Source: an uncultured archaeon
Lineage (GTDB): Archaea > Halobacteriota > Methanosarcinia > Methanosarcinales > Methanoperedenaceae
DNA: 36,171 nt
NCBI GenBank assembly: GCA_902386135.1
Contig: CABMIB010000065.1
Location: 1-36,171, forward strand
Reading direction: 5' to 3'
The position numbers and the translations under genes are program-made. The number at the start of each line of letters is the position of its first letter. Positions within the stretch are counted from its first letter, which is position 1. Below are positions 2,740 to 17,351 of the stretch, one piece after another. The notes beneath the pieces were generated by a model. The model was not told where the DNA came from. It made no database searches and saw only the letters and a list, made by a program, of their open reading frames with translations.

Positions 2740-2780
2740 GCGGAGGTTGCCCAGACCGGTCAAAGGCGCCAGCTTGAGGG
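2740..2780 (+). pseudogene. 5' half of host tRNA-Leu(GAG), cut in the anticodon loop (attL)
   Basis: Bases 2740-2780 read as tRNA-Leu from the acceptor strand GCGGAGG through D arm and 5' anticodon stem CCAGC (2769-2773) to the loop TTGAGGG (2774-2780), then leave tRNA sequence abruptly. The missing half is at 15805-15855: loop TTGAGGG, stem GCTGG, variable region, T arm, and acceptor CCTCCGC, which pairs exactly with GCGGAGG. Joining the halves gives one standard tRNA with anticodon GAG. The position after rpoD fits the tRNA-Leu found there in some archaea (established for haloarchaea, from memory). A tRNA intron or a trans-spliced split tRNA is the alternative reading. Confidence 0.85.
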
Positions 2781-2852
2781 TTATACTCAAAACATGGCAC
2801 AAGATTTAAGTCTGAGCACCACGAAAAAGAGCACAAAAACATAGGTGATACG

Positions 2853-2884
2853 AAAATATAAAACTTACGCAATTTATGGCGTAA
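2853..2884 (+). promoter_or_regulatory. Promoter and hairpin before the element tRNA-Leu
   Basis: AAAATATAAAAC, preceded by CG (BRE-like), lies at about 2853-2864, roughly 28 bp before the tRNA at 2890, giving this tRNA its own promoter. TTACGC (2865-2870) and GCGTAA (2879-2884) form a hairpin with an 8-nt loop. A matching hairpin, TTGCGC-8 nt-GCGCAA, adjoins the other att core at 15783-15802, so both element ends carry the same kind of inverted repeat. Confidence 0.5.
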
Positions 2885-2889
2885 ACATT

Positions 2890-2977
2890 GCGAGGGTTGC
2901 CCAGACCGGTCAAAGGCGATAGCTTGAGGGGCTATTTCCGTAGGGATTCGTGGGTTCAAATCCCATCCCTCGCACCA
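2890..2977 (+). tRNA. tRNA-Leu(GAG), complete copy inside the element
   Basis: Complete cloverleaf: acceptor GCGAGGG/CCCTCGC, D arm GCC/GGC, anticodon stem ATAGC/GCTAT with loop TTGAGGG (anticodon GAG, reads CUC/CUU), a long class II variable region, T arm GTGGG-TTCAAAT-CCCAT, discriminator A and an encoded CCA (2975-2977). The body is nearly identical to the split host tRNA, with compensatory changes in acceptor and anticodon stems. By position it lies inside the element, so it most likely replaces the host gene that integration destroyed. It has its own TATA box at about 2853. Confidence 0.93.
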
Positions 2978-3014
2978 TTTTACTGACTATTCCAAGTATC
3001 CATAAAAACAAAAA

Positions 3015-3042
3015 GGGATACACAGCCTGAGCCATGTATCCC
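3015..3042 (+). terminator. Hairpin after the element tRNA-Leu
   Basis: GGGATACA (3015-3022) and TGTATCCC (3035-3042) form a perfect 8-bp stem with a 12-nt loop, 38 nt after the tRNA. Only a weak T content follows (TTCCT), so it may be a processing or termination signal. Confidence 0.4.
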
Positions 3043-3065
3043 TTCCTGATGACGGCAAAGCCGCC

Positions 3066-3097
3066 TAACAACCGATCTTAATCGGTGGTTCTCATCC
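3066..3097 (+). repeat. tRNA-like fragment or hairpin matching the downstream tRNA
   Basis: ACCGAT-CTTA-ATCGGT forms a hairpin that is followed by GGTTCTCATCCA. The last 16 bases (CGGTGGTTCTCATCCA) are identical to the anticodon-stem/variable-arm junction of the tRNA at 3178. It looks like a partial, decayed copy of that tRNA's anticodon and variable arms. A subterminal hairpin of a lost IS200/IS605-type element is an alternative. Confidence 0.4.
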
Positions 3098-3177
3098 AAT
3101 AGTTTGTATATATCTTTGAGGTCTTAAAACATTCTATCGAAATACCTATAAGGGAGGGAAACCTATTCTGCGCTTGT

Positions 3178-3266
3178 GCCGGGATGGTAGAGCGGCTTAA
3201 TACGCCGGTCTTAAAAACCGGTGGTTCTCATCCAGAATCACATGGGTTCGAATCCCATTCCCGGCG
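3178..3266 (+). tRNA. Class II tRNA, anticodon UAA (Leu) with serine-like body
   Basis: Acceptor GCCGGGA/TCCCGGC, short D stem GTA/TAC with a GAGCGGCTTAA loop, anticodon stem CCGGT/ACCGG with loop CTTAAAA (anticodon UAA, codon UUA), long variable arm GTGGTTCT-CATCC-AGAATCAC, T arm ATGGG-TTCGAAT-CCCAT. The discriminator is G (3266) and CCA is not encoded. By anticodon this is tRNA-Leu. However, G73, the GAGCGG D-loop and a CCGGTCTT.AAAACCGG arm are serine-tRNA features, and archaeal LeuRS is known to need A73. A TATA-like CTATAAG sits about 30 bp upstream (near 3147). The fold is certain enough; the amino acid it carries is open. Confidence 0.8.
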
Positions 3267-3283
3267 CTCTCTGGATGTGGTCC

Positions 3284-3312
3284 GGGGCACCATAACGCCC
3301 CATGTTATTTTT
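3284..3312 (+). terminator. Terminator after the UAA tRNA
   Basis: GGGGC (3284-3288) and GCCCC (3297-3301) pair around an 8-nt loop and are followed by TTATTTTT (3305-3312), 18 nt after the tRNA end. Confidence 0.6.
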
Positions 3313-3333
3313 GCCTGGCCTTCTGTCATCCTT

Positions 3334-3448
3334 GGGCTGAAATGCAACACCTGACAGAACATGCTCTGCATCTGGATACTAATAGATACTAATAGATACT
3401 AAATTAGTAGGGCTGAAATGCAACACCTGACAGAACATGCTCTGCATC
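3334..3448. repeat. Pair of 39-nt direct repeats around a tandem-repeat spacer
   Basis: The same 39-nt unit occurs at 3334-3372 and 3410-3448; it begins GGGCTGAAATGCAACACC and ends CATGCTCTGCATC. The 37-nt spacer (3373-3409) is AT-rich and holds three tandem copies of GATACTAATA or GATACTAAAT. The unit contains ATGCA and TGCAT near its two ends. Repeat-spacer-repeat geometry resembles a minimal CRISPR, but there are only two units and no cas gene. An iteron-like replication or partition site of the element is at least as likely. Confidence 0.75.
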
Positions 3449-3845
3449 CCCGCCCCAAAATTACACCATTCTTTCTTACTGGAATAGGCTTGTTTTAACA
3501 CATCTCTATTCGGCTCCTGTCTTTGTACCAATCCCGGCAAGAATCGCTTAAATCGTGTTTAAATCGTTCTTTTTACAATCCCGTAACGGAAGCGGCTTAT
3601 CAGGATGCGATATAAGGCATTTTCTTTAAGCGGCTAATGGTTTTATACATAGTTTCAGAGGCTAAAAATAGAAAAAATCAACATCTGCCTAATTGACGCC
3701 CGTTACTTCGGAGGAGAGCTAACAGCATATCGTATCATGGCAGTCAACTTTGTAATAATAGGTCTATAGATGCAAGTTTCTGAGAATTAGCGCCCGCCGA
3801 TTAATCCAAAAAGAACATAAAGACAATGAAAAAAACCAACTGAAT

Positions 3846-3876
3846 AAAGAAGGGTCGGTATGCCGACCTCTTCTTT
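3846..3876 (-). terminator. Terminator hairpin for the leftward gene pair at 3968-4422
   Basis: AAAGAAGGGTCGG (3846-3858) and CCGACCTCTTCTTT (3863-3876) form a 13-bp stem with one bulge around the loop TATG. Read on the minus strand, a T-rich tract follows (TTGGTTTTTTTCATTG), consistent with termination of the genes ending at 3968. Confidence 0.6.
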
Positions 3877-3967
3877 ATAGGCCGTAGATGCGGGAACTAT
3901 TAAAAAACTGGATAAGTCATTGCTCGACCACTTCATGAGTCGATAGTACTTTATTGTTTTGCATATC

Positions 3968-4273
3968 TTACCTCACGTCAGGGGCTTGGTTTATCTCTCT
4001 TATCGCTTCCTCCGCCTCAAGTTCGGTAAGCTCTCCAAAAGACCTGAGTTCTCTTATCGCCTCCTCGAAGTCGCATCTGGTTGTTTCATACCTCAGGTCG
4101 TTGATTACATCTTGGACGATGAAATTTATTAGGTCCTCGCTCAGCTTCGGATTCAAAGCCTTGATTTTGTTTGACCCCCTCAGGTCTCTCCAGGTATCGG
4201 CATAGACCTTTGGAACTTCCAGGGGCACATTAATGATTGAACTCTTCGGGGCGGGCTTCTTTGAAGGTTTCAC
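3968..4273 (-). CDS. Hypothetical acidic protein of the element
   Basis: 101 residues, not recognised. The N-terminus is basic (KPSKKPAPKS); the rest is predicted helical and acidic, ending with a Glu-rich segment (ELTELEAEEAIREI). No catalytic motif, Cys cluster or membrane segment. The start is GTG at 4273, which overlaps the stop of the upstream small gene (GTGA) and is preceded by a GGGGGTGA ribosome binding site, so the two are translationally coupled. Probably an accessory or regulatory factor of the element; function unknown. Confidence 0.65.
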   Translation of the reverse strand: MKPSKKPAPKSSIINVPLEVPKVYADTWRDLRGSNKIKALNPKLSEDLINFIVQDVINDLRYETTRCDFEEAIRELRSFGELTELEAEEAIREINQAPDVR

Positions 4274-4422
4274 AGGTTCACCCCCATGTTTTGCAATGTT
4301 AGCTCGTAGCCGACCATTGTAAAGGTATATTCTTCCCAGGTGATTTTTCCTTGGGATAGTAATTCCTCCCCGGCGATTCTGGCTTCATGGAAAGCCTTTT
4401 TTACTTGCTCGATTGTTTTCAT
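4270..4422 (-). CDS. Small hypothetical protein (50 aa) of the element
   Basis: Start chosen at the ATG of MKTIEQVKKAF (4422), because AGAAGG lies 9 nt before it. An ATG at 4431 touches that ribosome binding site, and an upstream start at 4494 has none. The protein is short and helical (IEQVKKAFHEARIAGEELLSQ, then KITWEEYTFTMVGYEL) and resembles short helical SHOCT-like modules only in general pattern. Its stop overlaps the GTG of the next gene. A TATA-like TATATTATG lies near 4504-4512. Not recognised. Confidence 0.6.
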   Translation of the reverse strand: MKTIEQVKKAFHEARIAGEELLSQGKITWEEYTFTMVGYELTLQNMGVNL

Positions 4423-4595
4423 ATTGTTCATCCTTCTTGAGAGGATGAGCCGCGCCTCTGGGTGCTCGTAACACCGCAGGGGCAATCTGCTCATTTCTTC
4501 AATCTATATTATGCGCTAATTCCCCTTATACTTTGTGGTACTCAGTGGGAATAAGTAGGTATTATTATATACGCAGGGGGATATAGTAGGATAAT

Positions 4596-4736
4596 ATGGC
4601 GAAAGCAACAGTTCAAGTTAATGATCCAAAATTCAGGATAGTTATTCCCCAAGATATACGGACTTTAGAAAATATCAATTTAGGTGACTTTATCGAGATT
4701 GATGTTAAGAAGATTGAAAAGCCAAAGACTACATGA
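4596..4736 (+). CDS. AbrB/SpoVT-like small DNA-binding protein (46 aa)
   Basis: A 46-residue frame with the AbrB swapped-hairpin pattern: KATVQVNDPKFRIVIPQDIR, then INLGDFIEIDVKKI, where the IVIP..IR and LGD.IEI elements are the family hallmark. Such proteins bind DNA as dimers and often act as antitoxins or transition regulators. The ATG at 4596 has AGGATA just upstream, and a TATA-like TATTATTATATA lies at about 4559-4570. Its stop overlaps the next ATG (ATGA), which couples it to the 82-aa gene, an arrangement typical of antitoxin-toxin or regulator-effector pairs. Residues after 40 (EKPKTT) form a short tail. Confidence 0.75.
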   Translation: MAKATVQVNDPKFRIVIPQDIRTLENINLGDFIEIDVKKIEKPKTT

Positions 4737-4981
4737 GTTGTATGCGTTTTATAATTTCAAACGTAACGGATAAGATGGACTGCAGTTACCTCGGATTAAC
4801 GGCTGTCATAAAGGACTGGTTTGTAAAAAAAGAAGGCATTGCAAACAGTAAAGAAGCTACCTTGAAACTGCAAACTGATAAGGGTATGCTATTTTCTTTT
4901 AAGAACGGTCAGGAACACTGGATACCGAAATCGCTAATAACATTTCGTAAAAGAGTTGAACAATCTTTACAGAATTATTAA
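4733..4981 (+). CDS. Hypothetical protein coupled to the AbrB-like gene
   Basis: 82 residues, not recognised. The predicted structure is mostly beta: ISNVTDKMDCSYLGLTAVIKDWFVKK, then EATLKLQTDKGMLFSFKNGQEHWIPKSLI, then a basic helix FRKRVEQSLQNY. This could be a small OB-like or SH3-like fold, which is inference only. It starts in an ATGA overlap with the AbrB-like gene and ends 4 nt before a further candidate start, so the three genes form a rightward mini-operon. If the first gene is an antitoxin, this would be the toxin by position, but no toxin family motif is visible. Confidence 0.65.
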   Translation: MSCMRFIISNVTDKMDCSYLGLTAVIKDWFVKKEGIANSKEATLKLQTDKGMLFSFKNGQEHWIPKSLITFRKRVEQSLQNY

Positions 4982-4993
4982 AAAGTGGTCGAA

Positions 4994-5281
4994 ATGCCAG
5001 ACCGTAACGAATCTTTTTCGAATGTGGACCGCAGGGTTCTGGCCAGGCTGCAAGGCTGCAAATTGAGTAATGGTACTTTTGAAGGGGCGCTTTGTACTAA
5101 ACACTGTCAGCATCGTGAATCATGCAAGGTGAAAAGATTCAAGTTTCTCATCCAGGCGAGGAATATAAAGGCTAAATTTGAAAGGAATACCCGGGTTGAT
5201 GGGGTTCATGTGAGCATCTATCAGCTTCTTGATTCCAGGCTCGATGAGTATATTGATGAGCGTACCGGAGCGGTGGATTAA
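4994..5281 (+). CDS. Small Cys-containing hypothetical protein
   Basis: About 95 residues from the ATG at 4994; a GTG at 4985 in the same frame is possible and overlaps the weak GTGGT ribosome binding site. It has a cluster C-x3-C-x5-C (CTKHCQHRESC) plus an earlier Cys and several His, which could bind zinc. A basic segment (KVKRFKFLIQARNIKAKFER) and an acidic C-terminus (LDSRLDEYIDERTG) follow. The Cys/His cluster next to a basic helix suggests nucleic acid binding, but the family is not recognised. Third gene of the 4596-5281 group. Confidence 0.6.
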   Translation: MPDRNESFSNVDRRVLARLQGCKLSNGTFEGALCTKHCQHRESCKVKRFKFLIQARNIKAKFERNTRVDGVHVSIYQLLDSRLDEYIDERTGAVD

Positions 5282-5554
5282 GCGCATTATCCAAAGTAAC
5301 GCCCGATACTCTATACTGTGCTTTTTTCTTTCAGGTGTTAAGCTCCATAGATGCGTTATAACGTATTTTTCTATACGTGGTCAAGATAATTGTACCCTGT
5401 TTTCCAACTATTTTCACTTCGCTGAGACCTTTTCTTTCAATGTCGATGACAAAGTAACGTCCATTTATTTTTTCAAATCAGATAGTTTAAAGAAGTCTAA
5501 TAAAATTTAGTAAAGTTTAAATAATACAGGATTGATAGATTAGCAAATAGGGGG

Positions 5555-5561
5555 GGTGAGG
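5555..5561 (+). promoter_or_regulatory. Ribosome binding site for the gene at 5570
   Basis: GGTGAGG, inside a seven-G run region, lies 8 nt before the ATG at 5570 and fixes that start. The upstream AT-rich sequence (TTTAGTAAAGTTTAAATAAT, about 5506-5525) is the likely promoter. Confidence 0.6.
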
Positions 5562-5569
5562 ATGGTAAC

Positions 5570-6181
5570 ATGAGTTTAGCTGAAAAATTGGGAAAAATGG
5601 GAGTCCCAGGATTCCGAAGCGGGAGACGGTGGAAGATGGCAATAGCGACAGCAGCATATCTCTTTATAGGGTTCCTGATATTGGCGTTCTTTGTCGGGTT
5701 ATCAACTCAGATGCTGCAGGAGCCAGCCAGTGCAGCCATGCAGCCAGAACAAAATAAGCAGCTAACGCAACCACCGGGTCCGGAATATGAATCATATGAA
5801 CCCACGCCGCTACCTGAGAAATATATCAGTATTGAACATTCATATAAAACTCAAAAAAAAATACAGGGTCATACCGCACCAGCAGGGAAGACCTTTCTAA
5901 TAATAGACTTCAACATAGAAAATCATGGATACCCAGTTTTTCGCATCAACCCTTTGTACTGGAGCGTATACGTGAATACTTTTGAAAATCCCAACGCATA
6001 TATATTGGTTTCATATAGAATTGAAAGTATTTACTTAGAGGATGAATTGCCGGTGGCCGAACTATTGAACGGCGGCTCGATAAAAGGAAGTGAGGCTTTT
6101 TTAGTACCTGAGGACTGGGATAATTATGAGATTCAGTATAATGACCTTAGAAATGAGAGATATAATATCATTTGGAAGTAA
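5570..6181 (+). CDS. Membrane-anchored extracytoplasmic protein, DUF4352-like
   Basis: 203 residues. One membrane segment spans about residues 23-45 (MAIATAAYLFIGFLILAFFVGL), a Pro/Gln-rich linker follows, and an outer domain starts near residue 85. That domain has the layout of DUF4352/telokin-like folds: APAGKTFLIIDFNIENHGYPVFRINP, then YWSVYVNT, and a late GS...GSEAFLVPEDWDNYEIQY. Such proteins are usually displayed outside the cell on a membrane anchor. In this element it may be a surface or entry-exclusion factor, which is inference. Its stop lies inside a copy of the GGAAGTAACGGGC repeat. Confidence 0.7.
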   Translation: MSLAEKLGKMGVPGFRSGRRWKMAIATAAYLFIGFLILAFFVGLSTQMLQEPASAAMQPEQNKQLTQPPGPEYESYEPTPLPEKYISIEHSYKTQKKIQGHTAPAGKTFLIIDFNIENHGYPVFRINPLYWSVYVNTFENPNAYILVSYRIESIYLEDELPVAELLNGGSIKGSEAFLVPEDWDNYEIQYNDLRNERYNIIWK

Positions 6182-6186
6182 CGGGC
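6174..6186. repeat. GGAAGTAACGGGC intergenic motif, copy at 6174
   Basis: GGAAGTAACGGGC at 6174-6186 also occurs, on the other strand, at 8483-8495; GAAGTAACGGGC occurs on the minus strand within 3695-3710, and a variant AAGTAACGCCCG lies at about 5294-5305. Most copies sit at or just after a gene end. Confidence 0.6.
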
Positions 6187-6234
6187 TATAGCGCTACAAA
6201 CCAGTTAAATCACATTTTTATAAAGTCGGCTCGC

Positions 6235-6252
6235 CAGGATGCGTTATAAGCC
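6235..6252. repeat. CAGGATGCGTTATAAGCC motif, one of three copies
   Basis: CAGGATGCG(A/T)TATAAG(G/C)C occurs at 3601-3618 and 6235-6252, with a shorter relative ATAGATGCGTTATAACG at 5347-5363. All three are in intergenic parts of the left half of the element. Confidence 0.55.
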
Positions 6253-6328
6253 GCTTTTCCCAGGCAGCCCTTATGTTTATATCTGGATGCATGAAATTAA
6301 TAGGTGCTACAGATAGTGATTTTAAAGG

Positions 6329-7903
6329 TTATCCTCCCAGGCTCTTGATGTTCCAGTTGAGTCTATCTAACGCCCGCTGTAATGCAGCGTCCAGGTCATC
6401 CACGCCGTAGATGGGCGCGTTAAAGTGCATGTTCACACTTATCCTGTTCCCGACCCTCCCGCCTTTGGGAACCACGAACTCGCCGGGGGTCAGTCTTGCA
6501 GGAACAGTATCGCCCGTTCCTATTCCCTTCACTTCTCCGCCAGATGCGAATGTCTGAACCTCAATGTTTTGGTCCCCTGACCCGTAATAGCCCTGAGACG
6601 GCAAGTCCCCGGACGCTATGCCTGCGCTGATTGCATTTGCATCGCCTTCCAGACTCGCAAACTCAGAGCTGGTCGGACTGATTGCGTGTAGCGTGCCGCC
6701 ATAACTGCTTTGGTTATATCCTGATATCGGGGATGCTTCCGGGAGCCAGGATGTTAATGGCGTCAGGTTTTTAAGTATATTGTATGCGTTAATAATATTA
6801 TTAAACGCAGATATATATGGGCTTTCTATCCCTGCCTGTATATCGGCTTCCTGTCCGTTCCAGGGATTTGAAGCTATCGTATATAATCCCTGCATGAGAT
6901 TATCGAATGCTGTACCTATTGATGCAACTGCTCCCCAGGCCGCAGTACCTACAAAACCTAAAGCCTCCGAGAAAGCATCTTTCCAGTCCCTAACCCCTAC
7001 TGAACTATCGCCCATGCTGATATTGGCGCCTTCTGTAGCGGTTTTTAAATCTTTTAGTTTCTGTTCAAGTTCGCTGACCACGCGGGCCAGTTCTTCATAT
7101 TTTGCTTTGGCAGCCTTAGCTTCCGGGGAATCGGGGCCGAACTCTTTTACTGCATCAATCCACTCTTTTAATGCCTGTTTCATCTGAACCTGCTTAGTAG
7201 CCAGTTCTCCTTCGGCTGCTGTGAGCGGGTCAATGGCTGCTGTGAGCGGGAACATTGACGCCGTGGTATTCGCAAGTGAGCTGCTGAGAGCATCCTGCTC
7301 AGTCCTGAGATTATACGCGGATTCAGTGTTCTTTTGGTGCCAGTAATATAGCGCACCCAGACCCGCGCCGATAACTACCAGCCAGGGCGCCAGGGTGCTC
7401 ATGGTCAATGTTAGCCCGCCTATGGCTAAGGTTCCAGTCTTGGCAAAATCTACTATCGCCTTACCAAACGACATGACCTGCGGTATCATAGATACTGCCG
7501 AGACTCCTATGAGCACCATTGATGACGTAGACCTGATATTCGCCCGTTCCAGGTTGTTCTGGGCTACCTCTAAATCCCGTGCTGCAGATACCGCCTGGGC
7601 GCTGTGCTCCCCGAACTTGGTCACTACCTCGTTATACCTCGCCTGGGAATTTTGAAGGCGGTTTACGGCATTATCTACGTTGAGCTGGGATATCTCGTAC
7701 CTGTCCATCATATTCATGGCGCGGTCCACGAAATGTCCCATCTCTCCGAACTTCCCGCTCAGTATCCCGATTTTATCTGCCAGGCTTTTCCCCGTTGCCT
7801 GAGTGGTATTCATATCCTCATTAACCTGGTTTAATACAGAACTTGCCTGGTTGCTCACGCCAAGAGATATGAACATTGAAGCTATTGCGCCTTCACCCGG
7901 CAT
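6329..7903 (-). CDS. Phage-type tail tape measure protein
   Basis: 524 residues. The last 75 residues carry the signature of tape measure proteins: FASGGEVKGIGTGDTVPARL followed by TPGEFVVPKGG. The rest fits: helical coiled-coil N-terminus (about 1-125), two to three hydrophobic segments (about 127-190, MVLIGVSAVSMIPQVMSF and LAPWLVVIGAGLGALYYW), then an Ala/Lys/Glu coiled coil (about 225-285). Tape measures fix tail length and help deliver DNA. At about 0.15 nm per residue this one would give a tail of roughly 75-80 nm (inference). Last gene of the leftward block; its GGAGGT ribosome binding site lies in the end of the preceding gene. Confidence 0.88.
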   Translation of the reverse strand: MPGEGAIASMFISLGVSNQASSVLNQVNEDMNTTQATGKSLADKIGILSGKFGEMGHFVDRAMNMMDRYEISQLNVDNAVNRLQNSQARYNEVVTKFGEHSAQAVSAARDLEVAQNNLERANIRSTSSMVLIGVSAVSMIPQVMSFGKAIVDFAKTGTLAIGGLTLTMSTLAPWLVVIGAGLGALYYWHQKNTESAYNLRTEQDALSSSLANTTASMFPLTAAIDPLTAAEGELATKQVQMKQALKEWIDAVKEFGPDSPEAKAAKAKYEELARVVSELEQKLKDLKTATEGANISMGDSSVGVRDWKDAFSEALGFVGTAAWGAVASIGTAFDNLMQGLYTIASNPWNGQEADIQAGIESPYISAFNNIINAYNILKNLTPLTSWLPEASPISGYNQSSYGGTLHAISPTSSEFASLEGDANAISAGIASGDLPSQGYYGSGDQNIEVQTFASGGEVKGIGTGDTVPARLTPGEFVVPKGGRVGNRISVNMHFNAPIYGVDDLDAALQRALDRLNWNIKSLGG

Positions 7904-7904
7904 T

Positions 7905-8264
7905 TTACGCTACCTCCATGCCGACATCTTTACCTTTGCTTAGAACCTGCGGCGCGAAATCCGCAAAGATGGTCTCCAACTGCTTGCAGAGCTGTTGTTC
8001 ACGTTCAAACGAGGCGGATATTTCAGTAGATAATGCAGGAAGGCGGTTAACGTCTTGCACAGTTTTAACCCGCTTCCTTTCCGGGAAAAAGCGAGTGCTT
8101 TTCGATATTTCAGAGGCTGCTTTGCAAATTCGCTGCATCTCCCTGAGTTCGGATAAACTTCGCTCATGTTCTTCTACCATGAGCTTCAGGGTCGTAGCTG
8201 CACGTTCGAATCTTTGAGATATAGCTGTTATTTCCGCCTGTGCGCTCTCTTTTTCTTTTAACAT
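7905..8264 (-). CDS. Coiled-coil protein upstream of the tape measure
   Basis: 119 residues, almost fully helical with a charged heptad-like pattern (ITAISQRFERAATTLKLMVE, then EHERSLSELREMQRICKAAS). No family is recognised. It sits directly before the tape measure gene, where tailed viruses usually encode tail assembly chaperones or small tail proteins, so a tail assembly chaperone role is a reasonable guess from position only. The ATG at 8264 has GGTGA 7 nt upstream, inside the end of the preceding small gene. One base lies between its stop and the tape measure ATG. Confidence 0.7.
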   Translation of the reverse strand: MLKEKESAQAEITAISQRFERAATTLKLMVEEHERSLSELREMQRICKAASEISKSTRFFPERKRVKTVQDVNRLPALSTEISASFEREQQLCKQLETIFADFAPQVLSKGKDVGMEVA

Positions 8265-8266
8265 AT

Positions 8267-8422
8267 CTATTTCACCTTTCCCTTAGAAGCCGAAGCCATA
8301 TGTGATTTTATGGCTGCCGCAGTCTCCTCTTTTAATGCGCCCCGGATTTTCCCATGCTTTCCAAGCACGAATTGTCGAAATTCTTTGCCTATTCCCGGGT
8401 CGACTGTTAAATGGTCTATCAT
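8267..8422 (-). CDS. Ribbon-helix-helix-like small protein (51 aa)
   Basis: Read from ATG 8422 (MIDHLTVDPGIGKEF) to TAG at 8267. The pattern of a beta strand, then F-x2-F-V-x2-KHG, then G-A-L-K-E-E and an Ala-rich helix ending IKSHM matches a CopG/ribbon-helix-helix-like archaeal module. A second member of the same family is in this element at 13858-13998; they share the D-x-GI, E-x2-x-F, KHG and AI-K-x-H positions. Such proteins usually bind operators as dimers. Lying inside the morphogenesis block, it could regulate late genes. Its end overlaps the ribosome binding site of the next gene. Confidence 0.75.
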   Translation of the reverse strand: MIDHLTVDPGIGKEFRQFVLGKHGKIRGALKEETAAAIKSHMASASKGKVK

Positions 8423-8480
8423 AATTTAATTAATGCATCGAGAGTTTATAAATAAAGGTTAACTCAATGTATTTTTATCA

Positions 8481-8495
8481 GCGCCCGTTACTTCC
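8481..8495 (-). repeat. GGAAGTAACGGGCGC motif after the terminase gene
   Basis: Minus-strand copy of the intergenic motif also found at 6174-6186 and within 3695-3710. It lies between the terminase stop (8511) and the start of the ribbon-helix-helix-like gene (8422). Confidence 0.6.
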
Positions 8496-8510
8496 TTTTA
8501 ACCAATTTGT

Positions 8511-9881: not shown

Positions 9882-10320
9882 CTTCGTTCACCTCCGATAA
9901 AATAACTTTTATAAAATCATTGAACTGCTGATTTAACTGGATATTCACCTGGGGCGCGCGGTTAATATCACCAAGCAGTTCTGAGAGCGTCTCAAGGCCC
10001 TTTATCCAGTTTGTATACAATGGCGCCAACCTCTCAGGACTAACACCCGCTACTTTTGCTTCCTGGATGCTTGCCTTTACTGCTTCCAATATGTTCATGG
10101 CTTCCACAGTTACATTAACCGTATGATTAGCTAGAGCGCCCGCTGCTTTTTCATTTGTCTTAGCGATATTGTGGAGCTTAGCCTCCCATTTCTTGACATG
10201 GTATCTTACGGTAGCTTCATCCAGCCCAAACTTTTTCCCGATTTCTTCATTCGTAAGATTTTGGCCAGGGTCTTTCGCAAGTTCGTAGATTTCACGGCTT
10301 TGCTCGTTACTGATTTTCAT
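9832..10320 (-). CDS. terS: Terminase small subunit (probable)
   Basis: 162 residues directly before, and overlapping, the large-subunit gene. The N-terminus is a helix-turn-helix (LTNEEIGKKFGLDEATVRYH, about residues 22-45), as expected for the packaging-site recognition domain of small terminase subunits. The middle is helical and suited to ring formation; the C-terminus (FNDFIKVILSEVNEVDRARII) would contact the large subunit. Identification rests on HTH plus position rather than close family similarity. The ATG at 10320 has GAGGCG 8 nt upstream. Confidence 0.72.
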   Translation of the reverse strand: MKISNEQSREIYELAKDPGQNLTNEEIGKKFGLDEATVRYHVKKWEAKLHNIAKTNEKAAGALANHTVNVTVEAMNILEAVKASIQEAKVAGVSPERLAPLYTNWIKGLETLSELLGDINRAPQVNIQLNQQFNDFIKVILSEVNEVDRARIITKLRANAIY

Positions 10321-10322
10321 GT

Positions 10323-10520
10323 TTATACGCCTCGTGAATTTCGGGAAAAATCGGGAATTCCTTTGATTGGTGCGCCAGCAAAAGGGCAGGTCTGCTTATG
10401 AGGGCAAACCTCACAGACGTCATCCCCTGTAGATGCGATAATGTATGTCGCACCCTTCAGTAAGGCGGAATTTAATTTTACTTGCCAGCAGCGATGGTCC
10501 GGGTAGAAAAAATTCTCCAT
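10323..10520 (-). CDS. Small Cys-rich protein, probable zinc binder
   Basis: 65 residues with CEVCPHKQTC (C-x2-C-x5-C) at about residues 36-45 and another Cys at 11 (HRCWQ), enough for one zinc site. It ends in a basic tail (DFSRNSRGV). It starts at the ATG at 10520 with GGGGT about 6 nt before it, and ends 2 nt before the terminase small subunit start, so it belongs to the packaging operon. Small zinc proteins near terminase genes are often packaging helpers or HNH-like factors, but no HNH motif is present. Function unknown. Confidence 0.6.
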   Translation of the reverse strand: MENFFYPDHRCWQVKLNSALLKGATYIIASTGDDVCEVCPHKQTCPFAGAPIKGIPDFSRNSRGV

Positions 10521-10531
10521 ATACCCCTAAC

Positions 10532-11134
10532 TTATGCCATCCATTGGCTGTTCACAAATTGGCCAACGGTCCATGGCGATTTTTTGCTTGCACCAATTAC
10601 TGGAGTTTCTGCGGGAGTTTCAGCGCCCGCCCATTTACCTCCGACAAGCCGCCCAACTGTCCAGCGCTCGCTAGTAACTCTCTCACCCGAACACTCATCT
10701 GAAGCTCCTGCAGACAGGGCAAATCCGGCCCCAGGATATGCCGGGTCTCTGACCAGTGTTAGAGCGCGCGGTTTGACACTCTTTAGCATGCCCTGACTTA
10801 AGCTATTTTTATGTGTCACGAAGATAGACCACTTCTTTTTCCATGTTCCATCTTTTATCTTTTGAGCGGCCGCTGAATCCGTTACCTCTGCCAGGGCATA
10901 TATCCAATCGCCCACGCGGAGAGCGGTTCTTACTGCCCCTATTTCGGATTTGGGGTCCCAGTTGTAATCGCATGCATGGGAATTGGCGATTGCTGCCTCC
11001 CCGCTGCATATCTTTAAGGGGACGCCTTGAAGGCCGGATATGATATTATCAGCCTCCGCGCTCGGGATGCCCCATTTATTTGAATTAAGGATGTCCAACT
11101 GCAGAACGGGACCAGCTATGCTCAGAGGCATCAT
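10532..11134 (-). CDS. Prohead-protease-like protein with C-terminal WTVG tags
   Basis: 200 residues. The first 140 resemble U35/S78-type prohead proteases: PLSIAGPVLQLDILNSNKWG, a GV-P-L-K segment, His53 (SHACDY), then AEVTDSAAAQKIKDGTW and Ser103 (KKWSIF). The His and Ser are 50 residues apart, as expected for this fold, but the assignment is tentative. The tail holds two copies of a short motif, WTVGRLVGGKW (about 157-167) and WTVGQFVNSQW at the very end; a third copy ends the 11953-gene product (FTIGRVVGKNW). No capsid gene is nearby for such a protease to act on. The ATG at 11134 follows GGGTG. Confidence 0.55.
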   Translation of the reverse strand: MMPLSIAGPVLQLDILNSNKWGIPSAEADNIISGLQGVPLKICSGEAAIANSHACDYNWDPKSEIGAVRTALRVGDWIYALAEVTDSAAAQKIKDGTWKKKWSIFVTHKNSLSQGMLKSVKPRALTLVRDPAYPGAGFALSAGASDECSGERVTSERWTVGRLVGGKWAGAETPAETPVIGASKKSPWTVGQFVNSQWMA

Positions 11135-11138
11135 TTAT

Positions 11139-11741
11139 CTACACCCTTCCCGGCACTCTACAATGCATTTTCTTTTTCTGCGGAAGCGGCATGAATCCGC
11201 GATTTAGCACTTGCGGGTTTGGCAAGTTCTCGAACGCCTTTTGGGCTTCTTTATATCCTCCCTCCAGGATTTCAATCTGTTTAGGGATGGTTAAAATCTC
11301 CTCTCTCAGCTTCCCAGCCTGTTCCTCTTTTTCAGGAGGTATTTCAGGCATGAATGTTGTGGGATTGATACTGTTTAGTCGCTGTAGTTCTTCAATCGCC
11401 TCGCTGCGCCTTTTCTCGAGTGAGGCGATTGCGAGACTGAGAGCTGCAATAGGGTCGTCTGGTTCTCGGCTATAAATAAGACTTTTAACAAGTTCATTCT
11501 TACCTAAATTTGCATATACCTGTCTTGCCTGTTCAAGAGCAGCCCATACGGCGGTGTTGGCTGCCTGGAGTTTCTTGATTTCTTCTAAAAAGGGCTTGAC
11601 TTCGGAGACATATATTGGATCAATCTGATATGTCAGGGCATCGCCTGGAACTGCGAAAGCAAGTAGTGCTTCGTGGATTTCGCTTATCCTGTCCTCGCGC
11701 CTTTTTATGGCTTCGTTTAGCTCGTTAATGTTCACGTTCAT
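11139..11741 (-). CDS. Coiled-coil structural or scaffold-like protein
   Basis: 200 residues, largely helical with long charged coiled coils (NELNEAIKRREDRISEIHEA near the start; LASLEKRRSEAIEELQRLN and LREEILTIPKQIEILEGGYK later) separated by Pro-containing breaks. No family is recognised. The composition and place between the tagged small protein and the protease-like protein fit a scaffolding or virion-assembly protein. The start overlaps the upstream stop (ATGA) and uses a GGGAGG site inside the previous gene. Basic C-terminus (PLPQKKKMHCRVPGRV). Confidence 0.6.
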   Translation of the reverse strand: MNVNINELNEAIKRREDRISEIHEALLAFAVPGDALTYQIDPIYVSEVKPFLEEIKKLQAANTAVWAALEQARQVYANLGKNELVKSLIYSREPDDPIAALSLAIASLEKRRSEAIEELQRLNSINPTTFMPEIPPEKEEQAGKLREEILTIPKQIEILEGGYKEAQKAFENLPNPQVLNRGFMPLPQKKKMHCRVPGRV

Positions 11742-11953
11742 GCCTCCCAGTTCTTCCCAACAACTCTACCTATAGTGAATCCCTTGCTTCCAGCCTGTTT
11801 AGGTTTCGTTCCTGATGATTCCCGGATTTTATCTTGAAATTCTTTATCCTCTGCAAAACGTTTGTTCACGGTCTCCTGAATAAAATCTCTCATTTTCTCC
11901 CGTTCCAACTCCTGACGGACGATTTCACGGGTTTTTTCTGATTCTTCACTCAT
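11738..11953 (-). CDS. Small helical protein ending in the FTIG...W tag
   Basis: About 71 residues from the ATG at 11953 (MSEESEKTREIV), chosen because AGGAG lies 12 nt upstream; an in-frame ATG at 11992 has no ribosome binding site. It is a highly charged helix (VRQELEREKMRDFIQETVNK) followed by a flexible Gly/Lys-rich stretch and the terminal motif FTIGRVVGKNWEA. That motif recurs twice in the protein of the gene ending at 10532. First gene of the leftward morphogenesis block. A tag shared by two neighbouring proteins suggests binding to a common partner such as a capsid shell. Confidence 0.6.
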   Translation of the reverse strand: MSEESEKTREIVRQELEREKMRDFIQETVNKRFAEDKEFQDKIRESSGTKPKQAGSKGFTIGRVVGKNWEA

Positions 11954-12105
11954 ATTTTTATTCGTCTCCTTTGATTTTTTTATTTTTGTCATAGAAATGA
12001 CTGTAACGAATTGAGCGGCTGTAAGGATTTAGGCGGGCGCTACTGTGGGTTATGCCGTGAAGCTTCCGGCGCCGGATTTTACGGAGGCGGTGATATCGGG
12101 AGGAT

Positions 12106-13305
12106 TCAGGCATACGCGATATCCTCCCGGGCGCCCTTCTCCCTGGTCTGAATGGGCGGGGGCTCAGATTCACCTAAATTTGATTCAGGTGTAAGTTGCT
12201 TTTGGTTGCTATCGGTTGCTTTTGTGTAATCCGATTCTGGTTTTGATGTTGCTAACCCTTTATTCGCTGCTTGCAATATACCTAATAAAAGCGGGACGAA
12301 ACCACCTAGATTTAAGTTACCATCCGGATGAAAATTTCTAAGTTCTACCCGGGTTTTATTTCCTTTACCATAAACAGCAAGACATGTACTGGCAACATCT
12401 CCTAGAATCAATTGATTTGGGCTGAGCGACACCGGTATATCTCCATTGAGGTCAAATTTTGTGAGCTCTGCCTTAGAAACAGCTTCGCCAAATAATGTTT
12501 TAAGGAATTCGTACATCCAGAGAAATTCCTTCAGCGTGAGGGCGTTCTCACTGGCTTTGATCACAATCATAAATTTATCTGAATACTCTGTGATTGTCAC
12601 TCTTTGACCAGGAATGAATTCTAAAACTTTCTCCCGAATTTTTCCATTTTCTTTGTTCGGATTTGAACTATCTGAAATGGTTGCTTCTGGTTGCTGTTGG
12701 TTGCTTTTGAAGCTGTCTAAAGACGTTGCTTTGGGTCCCACGGTGGGTAAAAACAACTCAAAGTTTTTCAGGAGTGTAATGTCGTTGGATAACATGGATT
12801 TGTATATCGCAATACTTGCGCCATGAACTCCAACTTCAATTGTTTTTTCTATTTTCCGTATCTGATGTTTGTCCAGTGTGCAATCGATGGCATAAAAACC
12901 ATGATGGGGCTTCCAAATTTTGCCCGCCTTGTATAGTTTAGAAAGGGTAGCTGTTACTATATTGTACGGAATCCCCAGTAGCTTTGAAATCGATGTTGCA
13001 TTGAATTCTTCCTCAGGATGATCACCTAGAAATTCAAGAATTCTATCCTTGTGGTTACTACTGAAAGCAACGTTGTTGTTCTGGCCGGTTGCTGTTGGTT
13101 GCTTCTCGTTGTTGTTGGATGGGTTGGACGTTTCTGGCGAGGAATTTGGTAACAAAAGCTTCATGCAATCCCGCATGGTTACTTCTTCTGATCTTGTAGC
13201 CTCATACTCTACTATTGCGAACTCACAAAACCTTGGCTCTAAGTACCGGGGGCATTTTGGACATTCAGATAGTGCCACATTAGATTTGAGCGTACTCGCT
13301 TCCAT
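12106..13305 (-). CDS. Winged-helix protein with N-terminal Cys cluster, probable regulator or replication factor
   Basis: 399 residues. The N-terminus has C15-x2-C18-x8-C27 (CPKCPRYLEPRFC), perhaps a zinc knuckle. A winged helix-turn-helix lies at about 84-140 (FNATSISKLLGIPYNIVTAT, then KLYKAGKIWKPHHGFYAID). Asn/Gln/Ser-rich linkers separate this from a second folded part at about 225-355 (KIREKVLEFIPGQRVTITEY, then SLSPNQLILGDVASTCLAVYG) and from a disordered tail. The layout suggests a sequence-specific DNA-binding protein of the element, either master regulator or initiator; no helicase, primase or Rep motif is seen. The ATG overlaps the stop of the upstream gene (TGATG) and is preceded by GGAGGG. 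Confidence 0.65.
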   Translation of the reverse strand: MEASTLKSNVALSECPKCPRYLEPRFCEFAIVEYEATRSEEVTMRDCMKLLLPNSSPETSNPSNNNEKQPTATGQNNNVAFSSNHKDRILEFLGDHPEEEFNATSISKLLGIPYNIVTATLSKLYKAGKIWKPHHGFYAIDCTLDKHQIRKIEKTIEVGVHGASIAIYKSMLSNDITLLKNFELFLPTVGPKATSLDSFKSNQQQPEATISDSSNPNKENGKIREKVLEFIPGQRVTITEYSDKFMIVIKASENALTLKEFLWMYEFLKTLFGEAVSKAELTKFDLNGDIPVSLSPNQLILGDVASTCLAVYGKGNKTRVELRNFHPDGNLNLGGFVPLLLGILQAANKGLATSKPESDYTKATDSNQKQLTPESNLGESEPPPIQTREKGAREDIAYA

Positions 13306-13610
13306 CAGCCCTCCGAAGAGGGATTTTCTAGTTTCTCTGACTCGCTTGGGACTATCCTCAAGCCCCGGTATGGCACAACCTCGAGTAGACCGGAATCCCG
13401 CATTTCTTCAAAAACAGTAATGGCCTCATCCTTCGATAAATGAAAAATAGTACCTAGAGTTTGGTAGACGACTGGGAAAGTGAGAATGCTATTTTTAAGG
13501 GGTGCTTTCTGTGCAGCGCGCTTCAAAGATAGATGGGCTTTTTCATATAATTTTAGCTTTAGCAGTTCTCTTTTTCGCTCTTCCTTATTAGCTGGTAGAT
13601 GTATATCCAT
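13305..13610 (-). CDS. Small winged-helix-like protein
   Basis: 101 residues. The second half looks like a winged helix with an Arg/Pro-rich wing: SILTFPVVYQTLGTIFHLSK, then DEAITVFEEMRDSGLLEVV, then PYRGLRIVP. The first part is a basic helical segment (EERKRELLKLKLYEKAHLSL). Such small proteins in archaeal proviruses are usually repressors or co-regulators. It is coupled to the 399-aa gene by a TGATG overlap, so they probably act together. No specific family assigned. Confidence 0.65.
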   Translation of the reverse strand: MDIHLPANKEERKRELLKLKLYEKAHLSLKRAAQKAPLKNSILTFPVVYQTLGTIFHLSKDEAITVFEEMRDSGLLEVVPYRGLRIVPSESEKLENPSSEG

Positions 13611-13699
13611 GTGCTATCTGGGCGCATCAACCTCTGCGCCCCTCTCATTTCTTTATTTTTGCATCCAAGCCTTATAAATAAAAGTTAAAAACCGCCCCA

Positions 13700-13861
13700 T
13701 CAGGCTGGCACTTGCATACTTGGAGCATTACTTTCGTTTTTTGCCATTTTTTTCAGGGCTATGATTACCGCTCGCTCCAGTGGTGGAAAGAGTGGGAGCA
13801 GATCATCTGATGTCTCTGCTAGGTTGGCTGCCTTCTCTGCGATGGCTGGTGAGAGGATCAT
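13700..13861 (-). CDS. Small hypothetical protein (53 aa) coupled to a ribbon-helix-helix-like gene
   Basis: Read from ATG 13861 (MILSPAIAEKAANL) to TGA at 13700. The frame starts in a 4-nt ATGA overlap with the gene at 13858-13998, which strongly supports translation. Composition is helical and Ala-rich with Asp/Leu/Pro in the middle (DDLLPLFPPLERAVIIALKK) and a polar tail. Not recognised. The coupled pair (DNA-binding protein followed by a small helical partner) has the shape of an antitoxin-toxin or repressor-anti-repressor pair. Confidence 0.6.
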   Translation of the reverse strand: MILSPAIAEKAANLAETSDDLLPLFPPLERAVIIALKKMAKNESNAPSMQVPA

Positions 13862-13998
13862 TCAGCCCCAGTTATGTGTTTTTTAATAGCTTCTTCTGCC
13901 TCGGTCTTCACGGATCCATGCTTGAAGCCGTGTTTTTTTTCTGCAAACTCAGCAAGCTCGTTCGCGATTCCGCGATCAATGGATATTGATTTTCTCAT
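13858..13998 (-). CDS. Ribbon-helix-helix-like small protein (46 aa), second copy
   Basis: Read from ATG 13998 (MRKSISIDRGIANEL) to TGA at 13858. A beta strand KSISID is followed by helix ANELAEFAEKKHG, a turn, and helix VKTEAEEAIKKHI. It is related to the protein at 8267-8422 through shared D-x-GI, KHG and AIK-x-H positions. The strand-helix-helix order fits a ribbon-helix-helix DNA-binding dimer. No ribosome binding site is seen; the divergent AT-rich promoter region at 14018-14062 suggests a leaderless or short-leader transcript. It faces the gene at 14087, so it may regulate that shared promoter. Confidence 0.72.
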   Translation of the reverse strand: MRKSISIDRGIANELAEFAEKKHGFKHGSVKTEAEEAIKKHITGAE

Positions 13999-14017
13999 AG
14001 TGCGTGCATTCGCCTAC

Positions 14018-14062
14018 AGTCACATATATTTGATTTGTGACCATTAAACATATATATTTACA
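14018..14062. promoter_or_regulatory. Divergent promoter region
   Basis: ACATATATTTGATTTGTGACC and ACATATATATTTACAG contain TATA boxes on both strands. The right-hand one (about 14049-14060) is about 27-35 nt before the ATG at 14087; the left-hand one serves the leftward gene starting at 13998. The TGTGACCATTAAAC stretch between them could be an operator. Confidence 0.5.
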
Positions 14063-14086
14063 GATTAATCATAAAACGTGATTATT

Positions 14087-14590
14087 ATGTTATCAAATGA
14101 GCAAAGAACATACCTGAAACAATACCGTGAGAGACACGAGCAGGCTGAAAAGCAGGCGGACACCAAGGAACTGGACGCCCTCAGGCAAATGAATAAAAGG
14201 ATATGTGATAAGGCGAAAGAGGCAATCTGTGACCTGGCCCTTATAGCAGAGTCCATGCCGGAAACTCAGAAAGAGAAAATATTTACAAAGGAGTCTTTGA
14301 GAGATTTTATTAAGTTTGCACTCCGGCCAGGTGATAGAAAACCTTTTGGATGTGCTATTAGGGATGAAGAGATAAACGCCGATCTGCCAGAGCCTATTTA
14401 TAATGCGCGGATATTCGAACTTGGCGCATTCCTTGCTGATTTTGGGTTGAGTTCAGCCTACGGAGAGATTTCATGGAGGCAGCGTATTATAGATATAAAC
14501 AATCCTCCAGGAAAAGCGAGGATGTGGGAATTGGTTGATGTTTTAGACAGTTATGGGTATAAGCTTGCTAAAAAGAATAAACGAAAATAG
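14087..14590 (+). CDS. Hypothetical helical protein beside the integrase
   Basis: About 167 residues from the ATG at 14087 (MLSNEQRTYLKQYRER); an in-frame GTG at 14078 is possible, but TATA spacing favours a leaderless ATG. The N-terminal 70 residues are a charged coiled coil (YLKQYRERHEQAEKQADTKE). The C-terminal part has mixed structure (IYNARIFELGAFLADFGLSS, then MWELVDVLDSYGYKLAKKNK). Not recognised. It is convergent with the integrase gene (stops 5 bp apart), a place where archaeal proviruses often keep excisionase-like or regulatory genes. That role is inference only. Confidence 0.65.
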   Translation: MLSNEQRTYLKQYRERHEQAEKQADTKELDALRQMNKRICDKAKEAICDLALIAESMPETQKEKIFTKESLRDFIKFALRPGDRKPFGCAIRDEEINADLPEPIYNARIFELGAFLADFGLSSAYGEISWRQRIIDINNPPGKARMWELVDVLDSYGYKLAKKNKRK

Positions 14591-14595
14591 TTAAT

Positions 14596-15750
14596 CTATG
14601 TTTTCCCCACCTTTGATATAGCCTCTGCAAACCATTTTTGAAACTCTGGGTTACTCTGCATGGCCGCGAATACTTCAGGAATAAGCTTGCTCTTATCCTC
14701 TATTTCTTTGGCCACATTCTTATCGAGGACTAGTCCACATGTGGCGCAATACTTCGCATCAACCGGATTATCGGCAGCGCAACGAGGGCACTTCCCAGGC
14801 TTCAAAGTCTTGAGTACTATCTCTTCATCATCAGTAATCAAACCATTTTTTATGAGGAGCTTCTTATCCACATCAGCGCCCGCTAAATGAACATAAGTCG
14901 CAGGCATGTTGCTCTCTTTTTCCCAACCAGCAAGTATCCTCAGCTCAGATTCAAGGAACCCCTGTCTTACAAAAACGGTTAACCTACCGTGCCTGAGCGC
15001 GTGAGGATGAACATCTTTATTGATCCCAGCTAATTTACCCACAGTTTTGAGCATGTTCTGAACTGTGCGATCCTCAACCCTGCGCACCTCCATGACCTTG
15101 CCCCCTTTATGGTCATAGCGCCTTTCTGTAACGAATAATGGCGCGTCAGGATTGTTTTTAAGTGGGTGCTGGTTAAGCCAGAGCCTCACATCAGGCAGGG
15201 AATCAATCAAACGAACTTTACGCATCCCGGTTTTCCCGTTTACTATCATTGTGGCGCCGTGCTCATCCGGCTGGATGTGATTGATATTTCGGCTCATGAC
15301 CTCATTTAATCGGCAGCCTGAATCCCACAGCAACATGATAATAGCGCGGTCCCGCTGGCTCTTGCATACTGATAACATCTTCTTGACATCATCCGGAGTT
15401 ATGAGTTGCTCAACCGGTAAATAATTCTTAGGTTGCTTTACTTTGATACCGACAAATAGATCATTTCCTGGCTTCAGCCAGTCGTAGAATTTCCGCAGGG
15501 CGATGATATCACCATTTACGGTCCATTGAGAACTTGAATAACGTCTCTTGATAATATAATCCTGGATATCGGTCTTAGTAACCTCGGCTGCAGGTTTGTT
15601 ATACTGCAATAGGGCCTGGTAATTCTTCCAGAGGTAGTTGTTAACTGTCCGATTACTTAGCTGCTGCAATTCAAGGGCGCGCTTAAAATCGTTCAATACC
15701 TTGGCATTATCGCCAAGTTCCTCGGTTGTAATTTTAGGTGGGTGCTTCAT
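14596..15750 (-). CDS. int: Tyrosine-family integrase with C-terminal zinc ribbon
   Basis: 384 residues from the ATG at 15750 (MKHPPKITTEELG). This start has a TATA-like TTTATTAACTTT 20-30 nt upstream, making a leaderless transcript likely. The frame stays open upstream into the tRNA 3' half (TTG at 15840), but that start would need the tRNA sequence. A SAM-like core-binding domain occupies about 12-105. The catalytic set is Arg147 (SGCRLNEVM), His250-x2-Arg253 (HPHALRHGRLT), Trp276 (LAGWEKES) and Tyr286 (PATYVHLAG). C321, C324, C335 and C338 form a zinc ribbon. It presumably cuts the TTGAGGG core at the tRNA anticodon loop 55 bp away. Confidence 0.93.
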   Translation of the reverse strand: MKHPPKITTEELGDNAKVLNDFKRALELQQLSNRTVNNYLWKNYQALLQYNKPAAEVTKTDIQDYIIKRRYSSSQWTVNGDIIALRKFYDWLKPGNDLFVGIKVKQPKNYLPVEQLITPDDVKKMLSVCKSQRDRAIIMLLWDSGCRLNEVMSRNINHIQPDEHGATMIVNGKTGMRKVRLIDSLPDVRLWLNQHPLKNNPDAPLFVTERRYDHKGGKVMEVRRVEDRTVQNMLKTVGKLAGINKDVHPHALRHGRLTVFVRQGFLESELRILAGWEKESNMPATYVHLAGADVDKKLLIKNGLITDDEEIVLKTLKPGKCPRCAADNPVDAKYCATCGLVLDKNVAKEIEDKSKLIPEVFAAMQSNPEFQKWFAEAISKVGKT

Positions 15751-15780
15751 ATTGCTTAGATTGCTTTGAAAGTTAATAAA

Positions 15781-15802
15781 GTTTGCGCCATACATTGCGC
15801 AA
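15781..15802. repeat. Hairpin arm beside attR
   Basis: TTTGCGC (15782-15788) and GCGCAAA (15797-15803) are inverted repeats with an 8-nt spacer, 2 nt from the att core. GTTTGCGCCAT here is also nearly complementary to ATGGCACAAG (2794-2803) beside attL, so these are probable integrase arm-binding sites. Confidence 0.5.
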
Positions 15803-15804
15803 AG

Positions 15805-15855
15805 TTGAGGGGCTGGTTTCGTAGGAATTCGTGGGTTCAAATCCCATCCTCCGCA
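15805..15855 (+). pseudogene. 3' half of host tRNA-Leu(GAG) (attR)
   Basis: Begins with the anticodon loop TTGAGGG (15805-15811), then stem GCTGG (15812-15816), variable region, T arm GTGGG-TTCAAAT-CCCAT (15831-15847), acceptor CCTCCGC (15848-15854) and A at 15855. It completes the half at 2740-2780. CCA is not encoded. Without the 5' half it cannot form a tRNA alone. Confidence 0.87.
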
Positions 15856-16170
15856 TATCTTTTCTCAGATACTGGTAAAACAAAGGACATTAATAGTATT
15901 AATACCGAAGAATTTCGTAAGTTCTTGCAAGTACAAAAGAATTTATCTAAACGAGCCATTGAAAACCATATACTAAATGTTAATGTATTTCTTAAATCAG
16001 ATAAATATATTCAAGACGTTTTATATTCGATCAAACGAATCAGAAGTTCATCAACTGTACAGGACACGATTAGCATAGATATAGTAAGGAAATAACTATT
16101 GAGCCTTTGCAGGAAAGGTATTGTAAATTCTTTCACAGGTAAACGCAACAGGCAGTTTTACTATAGGGTG
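15856..16170 (+). pseudogene. Broken integrase-like N-terminal domain next to the tRNA 3' end
   Basis: Directly after the tRNA, the frame reads INTEEFRKFLQVQKNLSKRA and IENHILNVNVFLKSDKYIQ, the pattern of a SAM-like core-binding domain of tyrosine recombinases. It runs to a TAA at 16093-16095. The same frame then continues as a plausible short C-terminus (LLSLCRKGIVNSFTGKRNRQ followed by FYYRV) before a second stop at 16170-16172. There is no proper start codon and no catalytic domain. This looks like the remnant of an older integrase gene whose attachment site overlapped the tRNA end. Alternatively it is a decayed winged-helix gene. Confidence 0.5.
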
Positions 16171-16848: not shown

Positions 16849-16894
16849 CGGAAGTTATTTGATAAATAGAAGTTAATGCTTGTCATGTGGAATA

Positions 16895-17245: not shown

Positions 17246-17351
17246 AGCTACTGTTGCGATTACTTTCGCCCCGCTCCCAAAATTTTGATGAGGAAACTGA
17301 GCATACAGGGGCAACAAGGAGACTATATTAGTGAATTAAGAGGTAGCTGAA

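Follow-up and report, generated by a model that had tools for sequence, protein, structure and literature searches.

In archaea, an intact tRNA gene is described as being reconstituted as the general outcome of integration events mediated by tyrosine recombinases (PMC8371274). The outcome is different in tRNA-dependent lysogeny, known from the actinobacteriophages Fionnbharth, LeBron and Gaia, in which normal lysogeny is lost when the phage tRNA is removed (Guerrero-Bustamante and Hatfull 2024, PMC10865867). No archaeal case of this kind was found in the literature searched, subscription papers lying outside the search. We analyzed a 36,171-nt stretch of contig CABMIB010000065.1 (the window), from the draft genome (G000; 120 contigs) of an archaeon of the genus Candidatus Methanoperedens, in which an element of 13 kb interrupts the host tRNA-Leu(GAG) gene. 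The element is very probably a provirus with tRNA-dependent integration, which splits the sole host tRNA-Leu(GAG) gene and carries a replacement with the same anticodon. tRNA-dependent lysogeny is its closest known precedent, with agreement in nearly all the features that sequence allows to be compared. Comparison sequences are labeled G for genomes and L for loci or contigs: G008 is the closest relative of the window genome, and G014 is Candidatus Methanoperedens nitroreducens, of the same genus (integrase contig NZ_JMIY01000001.1).

The insertion site consists of the following features:

1829 to 2614, plus strand: host rpoD (archaeal RNA polymerase subunit D), left flank; assigned by Pfam and by synteny with all relatives.
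2740 to 2780, plus strand: 5' half of the host tRNA-Leu(GAG), part of attL; read from the sequence, the joined gene folding and being collinear with the empty site of G008.
2774 to 2780, plus strand: left copy of the core TTGAGGG (anticodon loop, 7 nt); read from the sequence.
15805 to 15811, plus strand: right copy of the core TTGAGGG; read from the sequence.
15805 to 15855, plus strand: 3' half of the host tRNA-Leu(GAG), attR; read from the sequence and aligned to relatives.

The window opens with rps13, rps4 and rps11 (Pfam), followed by rpoD, and the 5' half of the tRNA gene comes directly after rpoD and ends in the anticodon loop TTGAGGG. The 3' half opens with the same seven bases, which are the only sequence common to both halves; the distance from core to core is 13,031 bp, and the element corresponds to positions 2781-15811 plus the cores. 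Joined at the core, the halves gave a single tRNA-Leu(gag) in ARAGORN with all stems paired. The G008 sequence is collinear through the joined site without a break (93% over 1,005 bp), an empty site with both flanks, and the comparison with this genome showed that host synteny picks up again at NMD3 beyond the insert. An uninterrupted tRNA-Leu(GAG) was found right after rpoD in every rpoD-linked locus recovered from the genus, except for the window and G018; the latter shares the left junction of the window and has a tRNA-Leu(GAG) of its own equally far from it. The insertion in tRNA-Leu(GAG) is real and precise, and chance is ruled out because G008 and the other loci of the genus show the site uninterrupted. 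No tRNA was found by ARAGORN at either junction of the element, and none follows the left core.

An earlier note on this DNA had placed the two tRNA-Leu(GAG) halves at these positions, with pairing stems and TTGAGGG as their sole common sequence, and had proposed that a tyrosine integrase used the anticodon loop as a 7-bp overlap without the host gene being rebuilt. These claims are borne out by the sequence, the canonical fold of the joined halves, the 7-nt core and an integrase of family PF00589. The comparison that it suggested, with a related genome lacking the element, is provided by G008, which is collinear through the 2780/15812 join.

Downstream of this tRNA the sequence is itself variable: the stretch to the right of the element up to NMD3 (15864-18341) measures about 2.5 kb, versus 1.4 kb in G008. 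In G023 (L081/L090), one contig contains attR with the GAG 3' half, and in another an intact tRNA-Leu(GAG) follows rpoD and the downstream flank differs, possibly a strain mixture. A decayed tRNA-Leu(GAG)-like 3' half lies about 30 kb past the intact tRNA-Leu(GAG) in G003 (L207, contig C7, near record position 43402), with no related integrase nearby.

Within the element, a complete tRNA-Leu(GAG) was identified close to the left junction:

2890 to 2977, plus strand: complete element-borne tRNA-Leu(GAG), the replacement; ARAGORN, and Rfam RF00005 with 45.3 bits.
2856 to 2861, plus strand: TATA-like box ATATAA, 29-34 nt upstream of the replacement tRNA; read from the sequence, with a putative function.

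The replacement starts 109 bp inside the left end of the element. The tRNA inventory of G000 was drawn up by covariance and DNA searches together with typed loci, and in this draft the copy at 2890-2977 was the only intact tRNA-Leu(GAG) (whole-genome covariance search and typing of long tRNAs); the other intact leucine tRNAs were TAA, CAA, CAG and TAG, plus the extra TAA of the element. In archaeal decoding the codons CUC and CUU depend on the GAG anticodon, and therefore the cell should need a tRNA-Leu(GAG). The host gene has been broken and replaced rather than lost. The term "truly disrupted" used in the earlier note is correct for the gene and misleading for the cell, because the sole intact tRNA with the same anticodon is carried in the element; both this tRNA and a complete tRNA-Leu(TAA) at 3178-3267, each detected by ARAGORN, had been overlooked. 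The replacement has a probable promoter of its own, as the TATA-like box suggests, and such a box was found about 30 nt upstream of the replacement tRNAs in several relatives.

The second tRNA of the element and the repeats near it were recorded separately:

3178 to 3267, plus strand: second element-borne tRNA, tRNA-Leu(TAA), with a long variable arm; ARAGORN, and Rfam with 60.5 bits.

This tRNA is unlike the host tRNA-Leu genes, and the host has its own tRNA-Leu(TAA) elsewhere. Its best matches in phage collections were tRNA-Ser genes of bacterial phages, with about 79% over 69% of the query. The sequence at 3065-3105, ACCGATCTTAATCGGTGGTTCTCATCCA, is similar to the anticodon and variable arms of the tRNA at 3178 and is perhaps a tRNA remnant. 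A direct repeat, GGGCTGAAATGCAACACCTGACAGAACATGCTCTGCAT, is located at 3328-3450, with a short ACTAATAGAT repeat between the copies.

The integrase gene lies at the right end of the element, and a pair of putative arm-type sites was found near the two cores:

14596 to 15750, minus strand: tyrosine integrase of 384 amino acids, intact, with a C-terminal zinc ribbon; Pfam PF00589 (E=5.5e-17), alignment and an uninterrupted frame.
2863 to 2886, plus strand: putative integrase arm-type site ACTTACGCAATTTATGGCGTAAAC, an inverted copy of 15781-15804; 1 in 300 shuffles was as good.
15781 to 15804, plus strand: putative arm-type site GTTTGCGCCATACATTGCGCAAAG beside the core; similar sequence in G014, G017, G023 and the virus vir524 described below.

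The integrase also matches phrog_1, and the catalytic positions are conserved in the alignment. The core sits 54 bp upstream of its start codon, and the frame is not split. The inverted match between arm sites was convincing in the window, fair in G017 and not convincing in G014 or G019.

The arrangement recurs throughout the high-scoring subfamily of this integrase. In all of the loci examined (29/29, Methanoperedens included) the integrase has next to it the 3' half of a tRNA-Leu severed in the anticodon loop. Where a 5' half could be recognized at the left end, it was always followed by an intact tRNA-Leu with the same anticodon (22/22). These target/replacement pairs, 12 from Methanoperedens and 10 from other Methanosarcinales, are related and not all independent. 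The Methanoperedens left ends are in GAG (G000, G018), TAA (G014, G019, G010, G003), TAG (G017, G007, G018, G002), CAG (G046) and CAA (G005), so that all five leucine anticodons are represented among the targets; the remaining ones come from G095, G096, G099, G103, G109, G115, G138, G140, G153 and G162. Both ends were recovered for elements of approximately 13.0 kb (G000), 13.9 kb (G014), 19.5 kb (G017), 15.0 kb (G005) and 45.2 kb (G019). As far as draft assemblies can tell, no other tRNA of the replaced anticodon is present in G014 (TAA), G017 (TAG) or G005 (CAA). The most parsimonious reading of the integrase tree gave about eight changes of target, all within leucine. A search of genome contigs with the window integrase itself matched only M. 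nitroreducens and one other contig. Far from being an isolated accident, the cut-and-replace strategy is common to the whole integrase subfamily: the deviation from the tRNA-restoring scheme that the earlier note pointed out is real, and consists of replacement instead of reconstruction.

G018 appears to carry replacement-type junctions at two tRNA-Leu genes, GAG and TAG (L080 and L195, contigs C45 and C55). The broken 5' halves in G014 (L092, 13882-13945), G003 and G002 (L156, L169) show insertions, deletions or changes in the loop, which fits host tRNA genes that have been abandoned.

The same module was found in circular form. Caudoviricetes sp. vir524 (BK063669.1) is a circular head-tailed virus of 38.5 kb with a host in the Methanomicrobiales, and its integrase is 40% identical to that of the window. 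It carries a complete tRNA-Leu(CAG) in divergent orientation to the integrase, and a second TTCAGGG lies between the two; the integrated elements had led to the expectation of just such an uninterrupted form. In contig L213, integrase, TTCAGGG core and complete tRNA-Leu(CAG) are arranged likewise, and L214 matches vir524. In the viral contig L212, with a close integrase, the core is followed directly by a tRNA 3' half, and by its sequence this looks like a classical reconstructing attP. Both strategies, the classical one apparently in L212 and replacement in vir524 and L213, therefore occur among close relatives. A profile scan of IMG/VR gave one weak match, and a scan with the vir524 integrase gave three. 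The integrases of the pleolipoviruses GacPV1 and ThalV2, about 30% related, were considered as carriers and rejected, as they are not accompanied by a tRNA.

Target and replacement were compared over the 5' half, which is present for every pair, and positions were counted in the 19 gap-free pairs. Differences fell at 43 of 95 positions in the anticodon stem versus 43 of 545 elsewhere in the 5' half. For 15 distinct pairs, Fisher's method gave a combined p of about 1e-7, a value uncorrected for shared ancestry. In no pair is the anticodon stem, which borders the crossover, the same in replacement and target, and in G018, G162 and G153 the only two differences are both in the stem. The replacement stems are nevertheless still paired in 22/22, and the anticodon loop is identical in target and replacement except for the decayed G002 target and one base in the G007 replacement. 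In the window, the replacement has ATAGC/GCTAT where the host gene has CCAGC/GCTGG; all intact host GAG genes examined have the stem CCAGC, and the two GAG replacements have ATAGC and TTAGC.

Integrases of this kind reportedly depend on the stem that adjoins the anticodon loop (PMC8371274), and on this ground the altered stem probably prevents the integrase from cutting the replacement. As an alternative, the replacements may just be descended from other tRNA-Leu genes; that of the window is 93% identical to the CAG tRNA-Leu genes of G004 and G019. With no great confidence, we incline to see the replacement as an integrase-resistant rescue copy, whose stem was selected to differ while loop and anticodon were kept, so that the element could break an essential gene and yet be safe from its own and related integrases, and to suppose that repeated rounds of this process permanently exchanged tRNA-Leu genes in the Methanosarcinales. 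If so, the decayed target halves beside intact replacements in G002, G003 and G014 would be fossils of tRNA-Leu gene exchange.

These observations suggest the following course of integration. The integrase would recombine attP, through its 7-bp core, with the anticodon loop of the one tRNA-Leu(GAG) gene of the host, and the target is split between attL and attR with no reconstruction; survival of the cell would then rest on the complete tRNA-Leu(GAG) 109 bp from the core, which, with its loop kept and its stem different yet paired, would probably escape the integrase. Once the element is circular, the gene for the integrase would lie side by side with the attP core and the replacement tRNA (about 1.4 kb), so that targeting and rescue would travel together. 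On a shift of the module to another leucine isoacceptor, the carried anticodon shifts along.

The carried tRNA could instead serve mainly for lytic growth or for evading a tRNA-cutting host defence, with compensation as a side effect. Both roles have been proposed for phage tRNAs generally (discussed in PMC10865867), and the unmatched tRNA-Leu(TAA) of the window element would fit them. However, the anticodon follows the integration target through the approximately eight retargetings, and the tRNA stays beside attP while the other cargo is unrelated between elements; we consider this explanation improbable.

A classical element, in which attP carries a tRNA 3' half that rebuilds the host gene at one junction, would make the extra tRNA incidental cargo. 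Rebuilding is the general rule for tRNA-integrating elements (PMC8371274, PMC4383910), and L212 indicates that this integrase family is capable of it. In the window, however, the left core is not followed by tRNA and the identity between attP and attB is 7 bp, so classical reconstruction is refuted there by the sequence; with the unreconstructed arrangement and a same-anticodon tRNA at all 22 left ends, this reading is very improbable for the elements described here. In G012, taken as a control for a classical element, no displaced 3' fragment was found beside the distant integrase within the 14 kb examined.

Equally hard to credit is the idea that the tRNA at 2890 is an ancestral host neighbour of the split gene and not cargo, despite its closeness to that gene and its resemblance to the CAG-type tRNA-Leu of Methanoperedens (G004, G019). 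It lies between the halves, inside the insert; no element-free relative of the genus that was examined has two tRNA-Leu genes after rpoD; vir524 carries an equivalent tRNA, and the same pattern occurs at four other tRNA-Leu loci. A misassembled or chimeric contig, conceivable in a 120-contig assembly, is the least credible source of the two halves, as the same attL occurs independently in G018, elements with both ends are found at other tRNA-Leu genes in G014, G017, G005 and G019, and G008 has the empty site with both flanks.

Some observations count against the interpretation of the element as a provirus with a protected rescue tRNA. Most genomes compared, including that of the window, are fragmented draft assemblies. 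Several genomes have tRNA-Leu genes with replacement-type stems and no adjoining half gene, so that stem variation is not exclusive to elements; the use of such stems alone as marks of past element activity (TAG, CAG, TAA) was dropped, as many lack an adjoining half gene and apparently lie at the ancestral locus. No capsid or portal was recognized in the window element with Pfam and PHROGs, and it could be a satellite or a decaying provirus. Other cargo of viral type was found:

8511 to 9881, minus strand: terminase large subunit of head-tailed virus type (phrog_38); PHROGs (E=9e-93) and Pfam PF17289.
6329 to 7903, minus strand: open reading frame of 524 amino acids with weak tape-measure similarity; PHROGs (E=4e-6), with a weak TelA match below the cut-off.

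The element is probably an integrated provirus of head-tailed-virus type of Candidatus Methanoperedens, in reduced form. Among the elements compared, the integrase is the sole gene common to all, and the remaining cargo differs, with for example an MCM helicase in G005, a primase-helicase in G017 and a Prim-Pol in G019. As only the integrase is common and the cargo is unrelated, the unit of integrase, attP and tRNA behaves as a module moving between backbones.

The window element resembles the systems of tRNA-dependent lysogeny (PMC10865867) in its tyrosine integrase, in an attB within a host tRNA gene that is not rebuilt and is non-redundant in the draft genome, in a short core (7 bp, versus 8-17 bp in actinobacteriophages), and in the cognate tRNA of the same isotype, here with the same anticodon; relatives with a classical attP are found in both, Boilgate among actinobacteriophages and L212 here. 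It differs in its archaeal hosts, its integrase subfamily with a C-terminal zinc ribbon, the position of the replacement tRNA next to attP, the use of all five tRNA-Leu isoacceptors and the consistent difference between the anticodon stems of target and replacement. The need for the tRNA was shown experimentally in the mycobacterial case and is here a prediction from sequence. A cognate tRNA without rebuilding of the target is reported, too, for prophage Lj965 (Lactobacillus johnsonii) and for some rhizobial prophages, both cited in PMC10865867 and PMC12429752; these are bacterial, and the likeness is taken from published descriptions. With Islander-type genomic islands (PMC4383910) the element shares a tyrosine integrase, a crossover in the anticodon loop and boundaries formed by tRNA sequence; unlike them, it has a working tRNA at neither junction, fragments at both ends and a separate whole gene. 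SSV1-type integrases (PMC8371274) are likewise archaeal, with strand exchange bordering the tRNA anticodon loop, but the SSV integrase gene, which contains attP, is split on integration and the tRNA is restored, whereas here the integrase is whole, its start codon lies downstream of the core and the tRNA is left unrestored.

New in these elements are the archaeal host, the compact attP-tRNA module, the change of target from one isoacceptor to another and a modified anticodon stem by which the replacement may be shielded. They would go unnoticed by tools that rely on finding a tRNA fragment together with a reconstructed tRNA. The integrase family breaks the rule of tRNA reconstitution (PMC8371274) across an order of archaea, and appears to extend to archaeal elements a tRNA-dependent lysogeny so far described, in the literature searched, for bacterial phages. 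Because a small module of attP, integrase and rescue tRNA has moved between five leucine isoacceptors and unrelated cargo, it offers a natural series for studying changes of target by site-specific integrases and the ways in which mobile elements make themselves indispensable, and it provides a concrete mechanism for the replacement of essential tRNA genes in genomes.

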